NCBI RefSeq assembly: GCF_900128895.1
Contig: NZ_FSQW01000002.1
Coordinates: 1,178,001-1,242,000 of the forward strand
Reading direction: 5' to 3'
Source of the DNA: Parasphingorhabdus marina DSM 22363
GTDB taxonomy: Bacteria; Pseudomonadota; Alphaproteobacteria; Sphingomonadales; Sphingomonadaceae
Length of the DNA stretch: 64,000 nt
Part shown: one piece after another, positions 1 to 5,591 of the stretch
Layout of the letters: each line of letters begins with the position of its first letter
Position numbering within the stretch: position 1 is the first letter of the stretch
Notes under the pieces: generated by a model
Databases searched by the model: none
The model's input: the letters and a program-made list of their open reading frames with translations, nothing else
Told to the model about the DNA's origin: nothing
Made by a program: the position numbers and the translations under genes

Positions 1-1
1 C

Positions 2-1420
2 GTCGAACCGCGCAGCTTTCCGATCCCGGTTGGTGTGCAGACCACGGAGCGGGCCAATAGCCTCGACGTTTTTGGGCGCTCCAACTCCCTCGTCCTCGCC
101 CAGACATTCATCACTGGTGTAGCGCTGATCAAGGGCTCAACCGCCTACAAGCCGCCTGATGTTGAATATCGCCTGACCCTGGCCACCCAGGTCAATCATG
201 TCGATGTTCCCGAACGCCGGGTCTTGTTCGTGGAACCGTCCAGGTCGTCCAATCGTACGGATTTCTTCGTCGGTGTGCAGGAAGCGTTTTTCGACTATCA
301 TATCCGCAACACCTCGGCCCGCTACGACTTTGACAGCTTCCGGATCGGCATCCAGCCGATGCAGGCGGATTTCCGCGGCTTCCTGTTTCAGGACAATCAG
401 CTGGGCTTCCGCCTGTTCGGAACGCGCGACAATAACCGCGTGCAATATAATCTTGGCGCCTTCGTGCAGCTGGAAAAAGATACGAACAGCGGTCTCAACG
501 ACATCTTCCAGACACCGCGCGAAAGCTATATTTTCTTTGCCAATCTCTATCGCCAGGATCTGCCCTTTGTCGGCCTGACCAGCCAGTTCAGCGTGACCTA
601 CAACATGAACCGCGAACGCAGCGATATCGAGATTGACGACAATGGTTTCCCGGTTCGGCCTGCCCTGCTCGGCGATCTGCGCGGCCGGGCCTATGACGTG
701 GTCTATCCCGGCTATGCGGTTGACGGGCGGATCGGGCGCATCAATGTCACCGGGCAGCTTTACGGGGCATTCGGCGAAGACCGGAACAGCTTCTTCACCA
801 GCGAACCAGCCAAGATCCAGGCCTTTTTTGCGGCGGCTGAAGCGAGCTATGATGTCGATTTCTGGCGCTTCCGTGCATCCGGGCTATTCGCCAGCGGGGA
901 TGGCAATCCCTATAACAATACCGAAGCCGGATTTGATGCGATTTTTGAAAACCCGATTTTCGCAGGCGCCGATACCAGCTACTGGATCCGCCAGACCATC
1001 CCGTTCGCAGGCGGCGGTCGCGTGATCAGCATCAACGGTCGCAATGGCATCCTGAATTCCCTGCGTTCCTCCAAGGAACAGGGCCAGAGCAATTTCAACA
1101 ATCCGGGTACGATCCTGGCGGGTGTCGGCGTCGATGCGGATCTGACGCCGGACTTCCGGCTGTCCGCCAACGCCAATCATCTCTGGTTCCACAAAACCGA
1201 GAGTCTGGAAGCGCTTCGAGTGGAAGGGTCGATACCGAAAGATATTGGCTGGGATCTTTCCATGGCCGGGATCTACCGCCCCAATGCCAACCAGAATCTC
1301 GTGTTCCGGCTGTCGGGCGCCGCATTGCTGCCGGGCAAGGGATTCAAGGATCTGTTCGATCAGAGTGACAAACGCGATTTCCACTATTCCATCCTCTTCA
1401 ACGCAATATTGGCTTTCTGA
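2..1420 (+). CDS. Outer-membrane beta-barrel protein, 5'-truncated by window edge
   Basis: The reading frame is open from base 2, so the gene starts outside the window; 472 residues are visible. The GTG at 35 is internal and has no ribosome site. The protein is rich in alternating aromatic/polar strands (for example YDFDSFRIGIQPM, FRLFGTRDNNRVQYNLGAF) and ends in ...FHYSILFNAILAF. A terminal Phe is the usual signature of a BAM-inserted barrel. No TonB box or plug is visible in this part. It ends one base before the decaheme cytochrome gene, so the two are almost certainly cotranscribed. By analogy with MtrB-type conduits it could be the porin sheath of an electron conduit, but sequence similarity to MtrB is not evident by eye. 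Barrel: fairly sure; partner role: inference. Confidence 0.8.
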   Translation, partial: VEPRSFPIPVGVQTTERANSLDVFGRSNSLVLAQTFITGVALIKGSTAYKPPDVEYRLTLATQVNHVDVPERRVLFVEPSRSSNRTDFFVGVQEAFFDYHIRNTSARYDFDSFRIGIQPMQADFRGFLFQDNQLGFRLFGTRDNNRVQYNLGAFVQLEKDTNSGLNDIFQTPRESYIFFANLYRQDLPFVGLTSQFSVTYNMNRERSDIEIDDNGFPVRPALLGDLRGRAYDVVYPGYAVDGRIGRINVTGQLYGAFGEDRNSFFTSEPAKIQAFFAAAEASYDVDFWRFRASGLFASGDGNPYNNTEAGFDAIFENPIFAGADTSYWIRQTIPFAGGGRVISINGRNGILNSLRSSKEQGQSNFNNPGTILAGVGVDADLTPDFRLSANANHLWFHKTESLEALRVEGSIPKDIGWDLSMAGIYRPNANQNLVFRLSGAALLPGKGFKDLFDQSDKRDFHYSILFNAILAF

Positions 1421-1421
1421 T

Positions 1422-4400
1422 ATGCAGCTGATCCAGACCCTTCTTCATCAGAAAAAATGGCTTCTCGCGGGACTGGGAGCTCTGGTACTGACGGCAGCTC
1501 CCGCCTCGCTGCTGATGGCGGCAGGCAAGGAAAAGCCGCAGAAAATCGATTACAGCTTCACTCCGCCCGCGCCGCAGAACCAGACATGGGATGCGGCCGA
1601 AGCAAAGAGTTCGGGCTGTGTGTCCTGTCATACCGACAGCGACCAGAAGACCATGCACGAAACCCCGGCGGTGGTACTGGGGTGTGTGGACTGCCATGGT
1701 GGCGATGCCGCAGTCACCGGAGACAATAGCTGGGGCAAGAACAGCCTCGCCTATATGGATGCGCTCAAGAAAGCGCATGTCCTGCCCAAATATCCGGAAA
1801 GCTGGCACTGGCCTTCCTCGGCCAATCCCAAGCGCAGCTATGCCCTGCTCAACAAGGAATCACCGGAATTTGTGCGGTTTGTGAACCCTTCCGATTACCG
1901 CGTTGCCCGCGAGGCCTGTGGCGCTTGTCATATGGAAATTATCGAGGCGTCGGAGCGGTCGCTGATGGCCACAGGCGCGATGCTGTGGGGCGGTGCTGCC
2001 TATAATAACGGGATCGTGCCGTTCAAAAATTATGTGTTCGGCGAAGCCTATACGCGCAAGGGCGAAGGCGCGACGATCAAGTCCCCGGGCAATCCGCACG
2101 GCACCGTGACCGAGGAACAGAAAAAACGCGGCGCCCTGCCCATTTTATATCCCCTGCCCACCTGGCACACCATCCCGCCGGGCGATATATTCCGTGTGTT
2201 CGAGCGTGGCGGGCGCAATATCAACACGCAGTTCCCCGAGATCGGCCTGCCCAATATCGGCGGCATCATCCAGCGCCTCGAAGAACCCGGACGACCGGAT
2301 CTGAAACAGTCCAATCGCGGTCCGGGAACCGGCCTCCGCGTGGCCATTCCGGCACTGAACATTCACAAGACCCGCCTCAACGACCCGTTCATGTGGTTCA
2401 TGGGCACCAACGACCAGCCCGGCGATTACCGGCAGTCCGGTTGCGCCGGGTGCCATGTCGTCTACGCCAATGACCGCGAACCGCGGCACAGTCTGATCTG
2501 GGCGAAGTACGGCCGTGATGGCCAGACCCAGACGGTGGATCCCACCATCCGCAATCTGAAAGAAGGCGAGCACCGGACCGGCAGCTATGGAACCTATGAC
2601 GCCGCCCATGGCAAAAAAGGCAAATATGGCGGCAAGGATGACCATGCAGGCAAGGCCGCCGGTAATGATGACGGCCACGGCGATGATCATTCCGGCGATA
2701 TCGACCCGGCGAAACGCGAAAAAGGTCATCCGATCAAACACACCTTTACCCGCGCTATTCCCACCGCCCAGTGCATGAACTGTCACATGCACCAGCCGAA
2801 CATCTTCCTGAACAGTTATCTCGGCTACACGATGTGGGACTATGAATCCGACGCGCCCTACATGTGGCCCGGCCCAGACAACAAGACGCCGCGCCCCGAA
2901 GGCATGAGCGACGAGGAATATGCGAAGATCTACAAAACGCAGAAATTTCCGACCGCCGAGGAAGTTCGCAAGGTGCTGGACCGCAACCCGGAAGGTGCAG
3001 CACCCAAGGGGCTGTGGGCGGATATCGATTTCCTGCGCAATGTCTATGATCTCAACAGCGAGCTGAAAGACACGCAATTTGCCGACTATCACGGCCATGG
3101 CTGGAATTTCCGGGCGATCCTGAAACGCGATCGCGAAGGCAATTTGCTCGACGCGGATGGCGATATTATCGACAATGATGATCCCGAAAAATTCCGCCGC
3201 GAAGAGGAAGAGAAATTCGTCAAACCCGGTATCAATCCCGGCAAATCCGTGCACATGATGAGCATCCATGCCGAGGTCGGCATGCAATGCGCGGACTGCC
3301 ACTTCGCCCAGGACAGTCATGGCAATGGCCTGATCTATGGTGAGGTCGCCAATGCGGTGGAAATCAGCTGCAAGGACTGTCACGGCACCGCCGATGCCTA
3401 CCCGACACTGAAGACCTCCAATCTCGCTGCCCGTCCGAAAGGCAAGGACCTGGCACTGCTCCGCAATGCCGATGGACAGCGGCGCTTTGAATGGATGCAG
3501 GATCCCCAAGGCAATCGGGTGCTGATCCAGAGGTCAATTGTCGATCCCGAGCTCAGCTGGCGCGTCAGTCTGGTCAAGGACAGCGTCGATCGTGATCACC
3601 CCGACTTCAACATGAAGGCGGCGCGGTCAAAGCTGATGTCGAAAACCGCCTCGGAAACCGGCAAGTACAGCTTCGGAACCGGTATCGCGGCAGAAGATCG
3701 CGCGCACAAGGATGACAATATGGTGTGTTTCACCTGCCATCTCAGCTGGACGACCAGCTGTGGTGGCTGTCACCTGCCGATTGAGGCCAACTGGCAGGCG
3801 GAAAGTCATCGCTATGAAGGCGGCACCACTCGAAATTATGCGACCTATAATCCCCAGGTTGCACGGGACCAGATGTTCCAGCTCGGGCTCCATCAGACCA
3901 CCAAGGGCAATATCATCGCCCCGGTGCGTTCCACTTCGGCGCTGGTCTTGTCCTCGACGAATATCAACCGCGAACGGATCTATGTGCAACAGCCGCCCAT
4001 ATCGGCCATCGGTTACTCGTCTCAGGCCTTTGCCCCGCATTTCCCGCATACCGTTCGCAAAACGGAAACCAAGCAATGTTCGGACTGTCACCTGAGCGAA
4101 GCGAATGACAATAATGCGATCATGTCCCAGCTGCTGCTGCAAGGCACGAATTTCGTCAATTTTGTCGGACTCCACGCCTGGGTGGGACTGGAAAAAGGCT
4201 TTGAGGCCGTGCGCGTCACCGAGTGGGATGAACCGCAGGCGGTGATCGGGTCCTATCTCCAGAAATATGCCTATCCCGATTACTGGCGCATGCATGTCGA
4301 GGACAATGATCGCGAGCTGATCAACTGGGTGCGCGGAAAGACGCTGGATGGTGACCTCTCGGGTGAGACCAAGGCGCTCGAGGAATTTGCCAATGTCGTG

Positions 4401-5591
4401 CAGGGCACAGGTGATGCGGTGCGCTGTCTACAGCTGCGCGGCGAATACATGTTTGTCGCCGAGGGCAAGGGCGGCTTCCGCGCCTACGATGTGGCCTCGA
4501 TCGGCAACAAGGGCTTTTCCGAACGGATCGTAAAGGCGCCCTTCTCATCTCTGGGGCACGACACGCATGTCGACACCAAGAATGCGACCTGCATGGCGCT
4601 GGCCACCAACCAGCCGATCGCACCCACCCGCAACACCAAGGAACTGCGGGAGATAAATGAAGAACAGCCATTCCACCCGATCTACAATTATGCCGTGATC
4701 ACCGATAGCGAAGAGGGTCTCGTGCTGGTGGATGTCAATACACTGGCCGATGGCGAGTTCCGGAACAATTTCTTCAAGCGCGCCGCCACATGGAATGAGG
4801 GCAATGTTCTTGCCGGAGCCCGGCATATCACGCTGGCCGGCCACTATGCTTACATCGCAGCGGCATCGGGCCTGGTTGTGATCGATCTCGACGACCCGCT
4901 GAAACCCCGTCATGTCACGACTGTGCCGATGACCGATGCGCGGGCTTCCGCAATCCAGTTCCGTTATCTCTGGGTCACTGACACAGATGGCGTGAAGCTG
5001 TTTGACGTCACCGATATGGAAAACCCGGTTGCGGTTGAATCGGGGACCATCCCGCTCGCCAACGCCCAGCGACTCTATCTCGCCAGGACCTATGCCTATA
5101 TCGCCGCAAAAAACGAAGGTCTGGTGATCGCCAACATTACCAGGCCCGAAGCGCCGGTTATCTATCGCAAGGAAACATTTGGCGGACAGATGAATGATGC
5201 CGAAGACGTGATTGTCGGATCAACCAATGCGACACTGTTCGCCTATGTTGCGGATGGTCGCAACGGGTTGAAGGTCATTCAGCTGACCTCGCCGGACAGC
5301 CAGCCCAATTATTACGGCTTTTCACCGCCGCCGGTGCCAGAACTGATCGCTTTCGCGCGCACGCCCAAGCCGGCGCTGGCACTGTCCAAAGGGCTGGACC
5401 GCGATCGCGCGGTCGACGAAACCGGCGGGCAAATGGCGATATTTGGCCGTATCGGTTCGCGTCCGTTCAACCGCAGCGAGATGCAGCGCTTCTATCTCAA
5501 CAAGCAGGGCAAGCCCTATTTCGTGAAGGATGCGGTGGACATGGCGGACTGGGTCGGCGCCAAGGCCCCGCCAAAAATCGCCCGACGATAA
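1422..5591 (+). CDS. Secreted decaheme c-type cytochrome with C-terminal LVIVD beta-propeller
   Basis: Start ATG at 1422, one base after the barrel gene stop; 1389 residues. A signal peptide covers about residues 1-34 (KKWLLAGLGALVLTAAPASL). Ten CXXCH heme motifs begin at about residues 66, 88, 166, 341, 451, 623, 650, 769, 780 and 886. An Asp/His/Gly/Lys-rich insert lies at about 390-435. Residues about 1000-1290 hold repeated blades (AYIAAASGLVVIDLDDP, YLWVTDTDGVKLFDV, AYIAAKNEGLVIANI) typical of the LVIVD repeat, a predicted beta-propeller. The protein must be exported and heme-loaded in the periplasm, and may sit at or outside the outer membrane. Inferred role: electron transfer across or at the outer membrane with the upstream barrel. 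An enzyme of the multiheme reductase/oxidase type is an alternative. No cytochrome maturation genes are in the window. Confidence 0.9.
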   Translation: MQLIQTLLHQKKWLLAGLGALVLTAAPASLLMAAGKEKPQKIDYSFTPPAPQNQTWDAAEAKSSGCVSCHTDSDQKTMHETPAVVLGCVDCHGGDAAVTGDNSWGKNSLAYMDALKKAHVLPKYPESWHWPSSANPKRSYALLNKESPEFVRFVNPSDYRVAREACGACHMEIIEASERSLMATGAMLWGGAAYNNGIVPFKNYVFGEAYTRKGEGATIKSPGNPHGTVTEEQKKRGALPILYPLPTWHTIPPGDIFRVFERGGRNINTQFPEIGLPNIGGIIQRLEEPGRPDLKQSNRGPGTGLRVAIPALNIHKTRLNDPFMWFMGTNDQPGDYRQSGCAGCHVVYANDREPRHSLIWAKYGRDGQTQTVDPTIRNLKEGEHRTGSYGTYDAAHGKKGKYGGKDDHAGKAAGNDDGHGDDHSGDIDPAKREKGHPIKHTFTRAIPTAQCMNCHMHQPNIFLNSYLGYTMWDYESDAPYMWPGPDNKTPRPEGMSDEEYAKIYKTQKFPTAEEVRKVLDRNPEGAAPKGLWADIDFLRNVYDLNSELKDTQFADYHGHGWNFRAILKRDREGNLLDADGDIIDNDDPEKFRREEEEKFVKPGINPGKSVHMMSIHAEVGMQCADCHFAQDSHGNGLIYGEVANAVEISCKDCHGTADAYPTLKTSNLAARPKGKDLALLRNADGQRRFEWMQDPQGNRVLIQRSIVDPELSWRVSLVKDSVDRDHPDFNMKAARSKLMSKTASETGKYSFGTGIAAEDRAHKDDNMVCFTCHLSWTTSCGGCHLPIEANWQAESHRYEGGTTRNYATYNPQVARDQMFQLGLHQTTKGNIIAPVRSTSALVLSSTNINRERIYVQQPPISAIGYSSQAFAPHFPHTVRKTETKQCSDCHLSEANDNNAIMSQLLLQGTNFVNFVGLHAWVGLEKGFEAVRVTEWDEPQAVIGSYLQKYAYPDYWRMHVEDNDRELINWVRGKTLDGDLSGETKALEEFANVVQGTGDAVRCLQLRGEYMFVAEGKGGFRAYDVASIGNKGFSERIVKAPFSSLGHDTHVDTKNATCMALATNQPIAPTRNTKELREINEEQPFHPIYNYAVITDSEEGLVLVDVNTLADGEFRNNFFKRAATWNEGNVLAGARHITLAGHYAYIAAASGLVVIDLDDPLKPRHVTTVPMTDARASAIQFRYLWVTDTDGVKLFDVTDMENPVAVESGTIPLANAQRLYLARTYAYIAAKNEGLVIANITRPEAPVIYRKETFGGQMNDAEDVIVGSTNATLFAYVADGRNGLKVIQLTSPDSQPNYYGFSPPPVPELIAFARTPKPALALSKGLDRDRAVDETGGQMAIFGRIGSRPFNRSEMQRFYLNKQGKPYFVKDAVDMADWVGAKAPPKIARR

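Follow-up and report, generated by a model that had tools for sequence, protein, structure and literature searches.

A window of 64,000 nucleotides from Parasphingorhabdus marina DSM 22363 (G000:C1:1178001-1242000, on contig 1 of a two-contig genome of 3.55 Mb) opens with the end of a gene for a predicted outer-membrane beta-barrel (barrel), followed by the complete gene (deca) for a protein that joins a decaheme c-type cytochrome to an LVIVD beta-propeller. The window probably holds the outer half of an electron conduit that is encoded by two operons and spans the whole cell envelope. This reading is supported by the anatomy of the proteins, by conserved synteny and by co-occurrence with an operon for electron entry at the inner membrane. 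An electron conduit had already been proposed in an earlier reading of the window from its letters (here called the sequence-only reading); the gene set supports this, while the function is assigned from sequence evidence in our analysis as well. The conduit appears to be real, conserved and probably complete, and it would work like the Pcc and Mtr systems.

The gene pair is built as the sequence-only reading described it. The barrel frame (2..1420) ends in ...NAILAF with its stop codon at 1418-1420, one base before the ATG of deca at 1422, and the deca product is a single chain that combines a Sec-type signal peptide (judged by eye), exactly ten CXXCH motifs (Cys 66, 88, 166, 341, 451, 623, 650, 769, 780 and 886) and the propeller. 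All ten motifs are retained in 111 of 114 homologous open reading frames (ORFs), and 109 of 110 barrel homologues end in F or Y; for these reasons the observation is not due to chance. Another 14 histidines of Deca, each shared by 95% or more of the aligned sequences, are candidate second heme ligands. The propeller belongs to the Pfam LVIVD repeat family (PF08309; 50.5 bits against a gathering score of 20.2, in three stretches). A His/Asp/Gly-rich insert, present in five of the 19 rows of alignment A1, all from the near family, is possibly a metal-binding loop. A PDB sequence search with Deca returned no match, and comparison of alignment A1 with the PDB sequences gave one marginal match, SbnI (E 0.0099).

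Reading leftward past the window edge, as had been suggested, completed the barrel gene, whose ATG sits 674 bases left of the window, and added two further genes, cytA and hbps. The edge does cut a gene, as stated earlier, and that gene is the barrel itself, not one upstream of it. Likewise, the pair of barrel and decaheme is real but incomplete, being the end of a four-gene operon with the order cytA-hbps-barrel-deca. Because the genes are spaced by a 4-base overlap and then by gaps of 5 and 1 bases, a single transcript can be argued for.

CytA has four CXXCH motifs and one CX4CH motif as heme-binding sites, a set found in 87 of 88 homologues. The protein belongs to the Cytochrome_C554 family (PF13435; 41.1 bits, gathering score 20.8), scores 24.5 bits against the 400 required by the equivalog c554 model NF043010, and matches cytochrome c554 in a PDB sequence search (E 0.00085). 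Its signal peptide suggests that it is periplasmic. The hbps product carries a signal peptide with a lipobox (LTSC) ahead of HbpS domains (PF03928; 87.2 bits, cut-off 25), and 60 of 103 HbpS proteins bear the lipoprotein motif. The decaheme had been regarded as the partner of the porin; on the periplasmic side, the likelier partner is the pentaheme CytA, encoded two genes upstream of the barrel, and the decaheme-propeller holds the place of an outer cytochrome.

Synteny was followed over 114 deca loci, 20 of them from distant relatives. The four genes lie on one strand in the above order in 80 loci, while cytA stands after deca on the opposite strand in six and on the same strand in one. hbps is missing in 11 loci, ten of which have less than 2.1 kb of upstream sequence. 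Where at least 6 kb is available upstream (98 loci), cytA was found on either side in 87; the remaining 11 are ten distant relatives and locus L121, which shows barrel and decaheme with neither hbps nor cytA detected in 9.8 kb upstream, possibly a misassembly or a reduced version. In one of the 114 loci, barrel and decaheme are each present as two pieces. Of the four genes, it is the barrel that comes next upstream of deca in 110 loci; these belong to the own family, to 13 further families of its class and to a single family from a different class. The four exceptions have at most 49 upstream bases. An ordinary porin that adjoins a cytochrome gene by chance, with no functional link, would fit a barrel that has no Pfam or NCBIfam match up to E 1, but it is contradicted by this conserved synteny, with both genes together in 110 of the 110 loci that have upstream sequence. 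We therefore hold a chance neighbourhood to be very improbable.

Around the distant clusters, a conserved set of neighbours was found, consisting of a protein with FAD/NAD(P), cyclic-nucleotide-binding and Fe-S domains (FAD, flavin adenine dinucleotide), a small membrane protein, and another decaheme, this one bearing an FHA-like domain. P. marina carries the genes for this reductase, cytochrome b and FHA decaheme (red, cyb and fha) as one operon on contig 2 (locus L181 on G000:C2). Each of the 16 cysteines that would bind the reductase clusters is found in 46 or 47 of 47 rows, gaps accounting for the rest, and apart from gaps there is a single departure from G-E and R across its two phosphate-binding cassettes. 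In the cytochrome b, H98, H112, H271 and H285 form two pairs 14 residues apart and are kept in 55 to 57 of 57 rows, again with gaps as the remainder; the cytochrome b561 model stayed below its cut-off in all three proteins tested. The FHA decaheme has ten CXXCH motifs in 61 of 64 homologues and looks anchored in the inner membrane by its single span. Measured against the cut-off of 20.7 bits, its FHA domain passes in L095 (25.1 bits), while the P. marina protein (18.9) and the Sphingobium protein (17.6) remain below. For PF22113 (MtrC/MtrF domains II/IV; cut-off 30 bits) the FHA decaheme passes with 35.9 bits and Deca reaches 28.0. At E≤0.1, PF14522 detected Deca, CytA and the FHA decaheme and no other multiheme protein in the own genome, in a search that could miss other kinds. 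CcmH and GspC are also present.

The two halves occur together in genomes. Among 385 genomes of the class, deca is present in 29 and the FHA decaheme in 37; both are found in 29 and deca without its counterpart in none, with the FHA decaheme occurring in eight of the 356 genomes that lack deca (Fisher p 1e-36, a value that ignores shared ancestry). The eight (G122, G149, G157, G202, G217, G321, G354 and G475) may use another outer-membrane partner for the FHA decaheme. Among 98 near relatives, deca is found in 42, the FHA decaheme in 41 and both in 40, leaving two genomes with deca only, which are 82% and 67% complete, and one with the FHA decaheme only (Fisher p 7e-24, likewise ignoring shared ancestry).

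Physical linkage of the halves stands apart from these p-values. An FHA gene lies within the fetched flank of 64 of the 114 deca loci, convergent after deca in 46 and on the same strand after it in one. It stands directly ahead of hbps-barrel-deca, with the same orientation, in 17 of the 20 distant loci: as red-cyb-fha in ten (three with cytA divergent after deca), as cyb-fha without red in five (three with cytA divergent) and as fha alone in two. Where 6 kb upstream and 5.5 kb downstream are available, 46 of 73 loci have the FHA gene; P. marina is among those that keep it elsewhere. On plasmid pMSHV of Sphingobium herbicidovorans, typed as conjugative, all seven genes lie inside about 16 kb, the barrel being assigned by position. 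There the outer genes are annotated as cytochrome c family, heme-binding, hypothetical (the barrel) and multiheme c-type cytochrome, and the inner ones as cytochrome c3 family, hypothetical (the cytochrome b) and cyclic nucleotide-binding protein. The positions of all features are collected in Table 1.

Table 1. Genes and protein segments of the proposed conduit and their neighbours. Window positions run from the first letter of the window; L002 coordinates equal window positions plus 14000; L181 lies on contig 2.
Feature	Position	Strand	Description
cytA	L002:9903-11324		Pentaheme c554-type cytochrome, 473 aa; outside window
hbps	L002:11321-13321		HbpS-domain lipoprotein, 666 aa; outside window
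barrel	L002:13327-15420; window part 1..1420	+	Outer-membrane beta-barrel, 697 aa; 3' two thirds in window
deca	1422..5591 (L002:15422-19591)	+	Decaheme c-type cytochrome and LVIVD beta-propeller in one chain, 1389 aa; exported, no lipidation motif
Deca signal peptide	1422..1523	+	Residues 1-34, hydrophobic core 14-32; by eye
Deca ten-heme region	1617..4091	+	Residues 66-890; ten conserved proximal His
Deca His/Asp/Gly-rich insert	2538..2726	+	About residues 373-435; alignment A1
Deca LVIVD propeller	4425..5315	+	About residues 1002-1298; limits by eye
Deca C-terminal segment	5316..5468	+	Residues 1299-1349, conserved, past propeller
CcmI/CycH-like TPR gene	L181:7368-8381		Divergent from inner-membrane operon
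red	L181:8579-11074		FAD/NAD(P) domain, two cyclic-nucleotide-binding domains, four 4Fe-4S sites
cyb	L181:11074-11955		Four-His b-type cytochrome
fha	L181:11971-13779		FHA-like decaheme, one membrane span
Metallophosphoesterase	L181:13786-14691		After inner-membrane operon

According to the proposed model, NAD(P)H or another cytoplasmic donor would reduce the flavin/[4Fe-4S] protein with its two cyclic-nucleotide-binding domains, and electrons would pass from FAD through the four Fe-S clusters to the diheme cytochrome b and so cross the inner membrane. The membrane-anchored decaheme with its cytoplasmic FHA-like domain would accept them and hand them to the periplasmic pentaheme CytA. From there they would cross the outer membrane via the 18-strand barrel, which the HbpS lipoprotein would assist, to reach the decaheme-propeller, whose propeller may dock to the barrel, the surface or a substrate. 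The extracellular acceptor could, as a guess, be a metal oxide, a quinone or oxygen. On the best reading, the whole conduit would contain about 25 c hemes between cytoplasm and surface. The order of the steps, the outward direction, the localisations including that of the decaheme-propeller at the surface, and a gating by cyclic nucleotide and phosphopeptide are drawn by analogy and supposed accordingly.

In its architecture, the outer operon resembles the Pcc clusters of Geobacter (OmbB-OmaB-OmcB and ExtABCD), in which a periplasmic multiheme cytochrome, a porin and an outer multiheme cytochrome are encoded in one cluster (PMC4245776, PMC6148476; here and below, citations refer to the sections of these papers that were consulted). 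Pcc porins have 18-22 predicted motifs or strands and their periplasmic partners 5-14 hemes (PMC4245776), and Geobacter ExtB has 18 predicted segments (PMC6148476). The barrel stands beside multiheme genes and has 18 strands in an AlphaFold2 model of the 86% identical homologue L137, and the pentaheme CytA, periplasmic by its signal peptide, lies within the range of the partners. The HbpS-domain lipoprotein in the operon sets the system apart from Pcc, as does the inner-membrane part with its FAD/cyclic nucleotide/Fe-S protein, cytochrome b and FHA-like decaheme. The comparison with Pcc was made by architecture and by the Ext models only.

Several points weigh against a conduit or limit the case for it. 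The outer cytochrome of Pcc systems is an outer-membrane lipoprotein, while Deca is a non-lipoprotein by motif, fused to an LVIVD propeller; the lipobox pattern is seen in two of the 114 deca ORFs. The folds nearest to the barrel model are 18-strand porins of the AlgE and OprD type. The AlphaFold model of Deca has a mean predicted local distance difference test score of 46 and its heme part is unusable; confident prediction is confined to parts of the propeller, at about residues 860-1130 of the model, and its PDB matches are propellers in general.

The missing lipobox and the AlgE/OprD-like fold would suit a periplasmic respiratory enzyme with a porin of its own. In such an arrangement the decaheme-propeller would act as a reductase or oxidase that receives its electrons from the FHA decaheme and the pentaheme, the barrel would admit a substrate, probably anionic, and no electrons would cross the outer membrane. 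Deca is also weakly similar to the selenite/tellurite proteins ExtM, ExtN and ExtO (70 against 800, 29 against 200 and 29 against 200 bits); ExtM is its best NCBIfam model (E 1e-19), with the best stretch covering about 50 residues around one heme pair. However, no catalytic multiheme model exceeds its cut-off with Deca. The sequence-only reading had named membership of a known soluble reductase family as one alternative, and this was not borne out: Deca scores 15.7 bits against 375 for the octaheme model OTR (TIGR04315) and 8.6 against 692.5 for NrfA (TIGR03152), and no HAO model matches up to E 1. Its 14 extra conserved histidines would allow bis-His ligation of all ten hemes, which would leave no obvious open catalytic heme. 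A standard substrate porin, the other alternative raised, finds some backing in the barrel model, yet 18 strands fall within the Pcc range too (PMC4245776), and the barrel differs from AlgE and OprD in having about 12% identity, another gene context and an N-terminal extension of about 200 residues. Genes of the type II secretion system (T2SS) type also speak for export beyond the periplasm: among the 20 distant loci, gspE is a neighbour in six and gspF and gspG in five, while the other 94 loci have none of them nearby. This neighbourhood matters because MtrC reaches the surface by T2SS (PMC7198977). Altogether we consider the periplasmic enzyme rather unlikely.

With MtrCAB, MtoAB and PioAB the proposed conduit shares the logic of a porin with a periplasmic and an outer multiheme cytochrome. 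The barrel model has 18 strands against the 26 of MtrB (PMC7198977). No MtrB-type barrel appeared in the VIA-align structure listing for the barrel model, which excludes nothing, and the barrel profile (alignment A2) had no match among PDB sequences at E≤1. The model search proposed earlier was run against MtrA as well as the octaheme family, with all scores below cut-off. MtrA was rejected as the partner: TIGR03508 (MtrA/DmsE; cut-off 192.2 bits) gives 10.1 bits for Deca and 17.4 for CytA, and the FHA decaheme has no match to it at E≤0.001. By these tests the system is not a member of Mtr, as judged from profiles and models. MtrCAB was reported as a single hit in Alphaproteobacteria (PMC8805035).

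Electron entry through NapC/CymA was likewise rejected, PF03264 having no match in the own genome and matching in the controls, E. coli and Thermotoga. Quinol dehydrogenases of this type are described as an accessory feature that differs among genera (PMC8805035). Their absence from the genome search would also agree with the same conduit running inwards, with an external donor (reduced metal, electrode or humics) oxidised at the surface and electrons passed to NAD(P)+ or the respiratory chain, as does PioAB of the alphaproteobacterium Rhodopseudomonas, which runs inwards (PMC8805035). The flavin/ferredoxin module, however, resembles an entry point at which NAD(P)H is oxidised. Energy must be put in to reduce NAD(P)+ with external donors of this kind, yet neither operon shows a coupling subunit. 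Inward flow is thus improbable in our view, and outward flow is retained in the model.

A multiheme cytochrome and a propeller protein also share a cluster in Desulfovibrio ferrophilus (DFE_0448-0451/0461-0465), as separate proteins; by this general description the P. marina system is set apart in having propeller and hemes in one chain. In the open-licence PMC literature no description of the present system was found, in searches whose spelling variants were not tried throughout. Nothing was found there for LVIVD with multiheme, FHA domain with multiheme, or cyclic-nucleotide-binding with multiheme extracellular electron transfer, nor for multiheme extracellular electron transfer in Sphingomonadaceae or multi-heme cytochrome with porin in Sphingomonas. 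Papers did come up for LVIVD repeats with cytochromes (an archaeal DIET paper), for beta-propellers with outer-membrane cytochrome gene clusters (PMC10599522 and PMC10654088), for decaheme in Sphingomonadales (PMC10654088 among them) and for multiheme in Novosphingobium. The consulted sections of PMC5371394 (Tenderia) contain nothing on propellers or porins.

The sequence-only reading had placed the pair in a sphingomonad. Among near relatives, deca occurs in 42 of 98 genomes, namely in 31 of 32 genomes from the genus, P. marina counted among them, in 11 of 27 other members of the family and none of 39 from the rest of the order. A scan of named genomes gave at least 586 relatives among 595 candidate stretches; by the titles of the best 80 of these, nearly all are Sphingomonadales, with two Caulobacteraceae and four bearing broader names only. 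The placement thus fits the nearest named relatives, but the gene extends to the 29 genomes of the class sample and, in a phylum sample (11 of 398 genomes), to one genome outside the class. Among 72,556 records of plasmids, 13 contain most of deca.

Soil, water and biofilms all harbour sphingomonads in abundance, and the group is usually regarded as aerobic and lacking extracellular respiration. Given the frequency of deca in the genus and in the rest of the family, the exchange of electrons at the cell surface could be widespread among them. A wider proposition, which we put forward tentatively and do not favour as yet, is that sphingomonads and other Alphaproteobacteria possess an evolutionarily separate, complete wire of about 25 c hemes, two b hemes, four Fe-S clusters and one flavin. 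It would be fed by NAD(P)H and not via a NapC-type quinol dehydrogenase, be gated at the inner membrane by cyclic nucleotides and phosphopeptide binding, end outside in the decaheme-propeller, and in some Sphingobium be carried as a whole on a large plasmid. Signal-gated entry at the inner membrane is not mentioned for Mtr and Pcc systems in the sections of the literature consulted. For gene deletion in strains that can be cultured, for example Sphingobium herbicidovorans, the genes are a defined target, and the flavin/Fe-S and multiheme modules can serve as search queries for other genomes.

The metallophosphoesterase and TPR genes that flank the inner-membrane operon occupy the same places in L181 and in pMSHV, which suggests roles in cyclic-nucleotide turnover and cytochrome maturation, respectively. 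Control by FNR was considered and discarded. At one mismatch, L002 has three sites where chance alone would give 2.06, and none of them precedes cytA; L181 has six against 1.86 expected (four of 200 shuffles reach six), two of them exact and none between the divergent TPR and reductase genes.

The N-terminus of the barrel (MAALSSSFVPILAVMSGEAEQ, L002:13297-13390) has no positive n-region and no upstream in-frame ATG, GTG or TTG, though outer-membrane proteins need a signal peptide. In a one-contig genome of the genus (G022:C1:289543-293813), deca is split into two open pieces that overlap (residues 2-531 and 526-1389), as a frameshift would leave it. Of the neighbour clusters, up383, up318 and up714 were set aside as partly or wholly wrong-frame readings, and two giant clusters were dropped because they look like single-linkage artefacts. 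The C-terminal half of up383 may be a genuine small gene that lies ahead of hbps in about 12 distant loci. The genes before the outer operon, for a thiamine pyrophosphate enzyme and an aldehyde dehydrogenase, are seemingly unrelated to it. Also upstream of the operon, L002:1-3930 encodes a very long Gly/Asp/Ser-rich protein, possibly surface-exposed, which contains a TP-repeat tract and whose C-terminal part is acidic.

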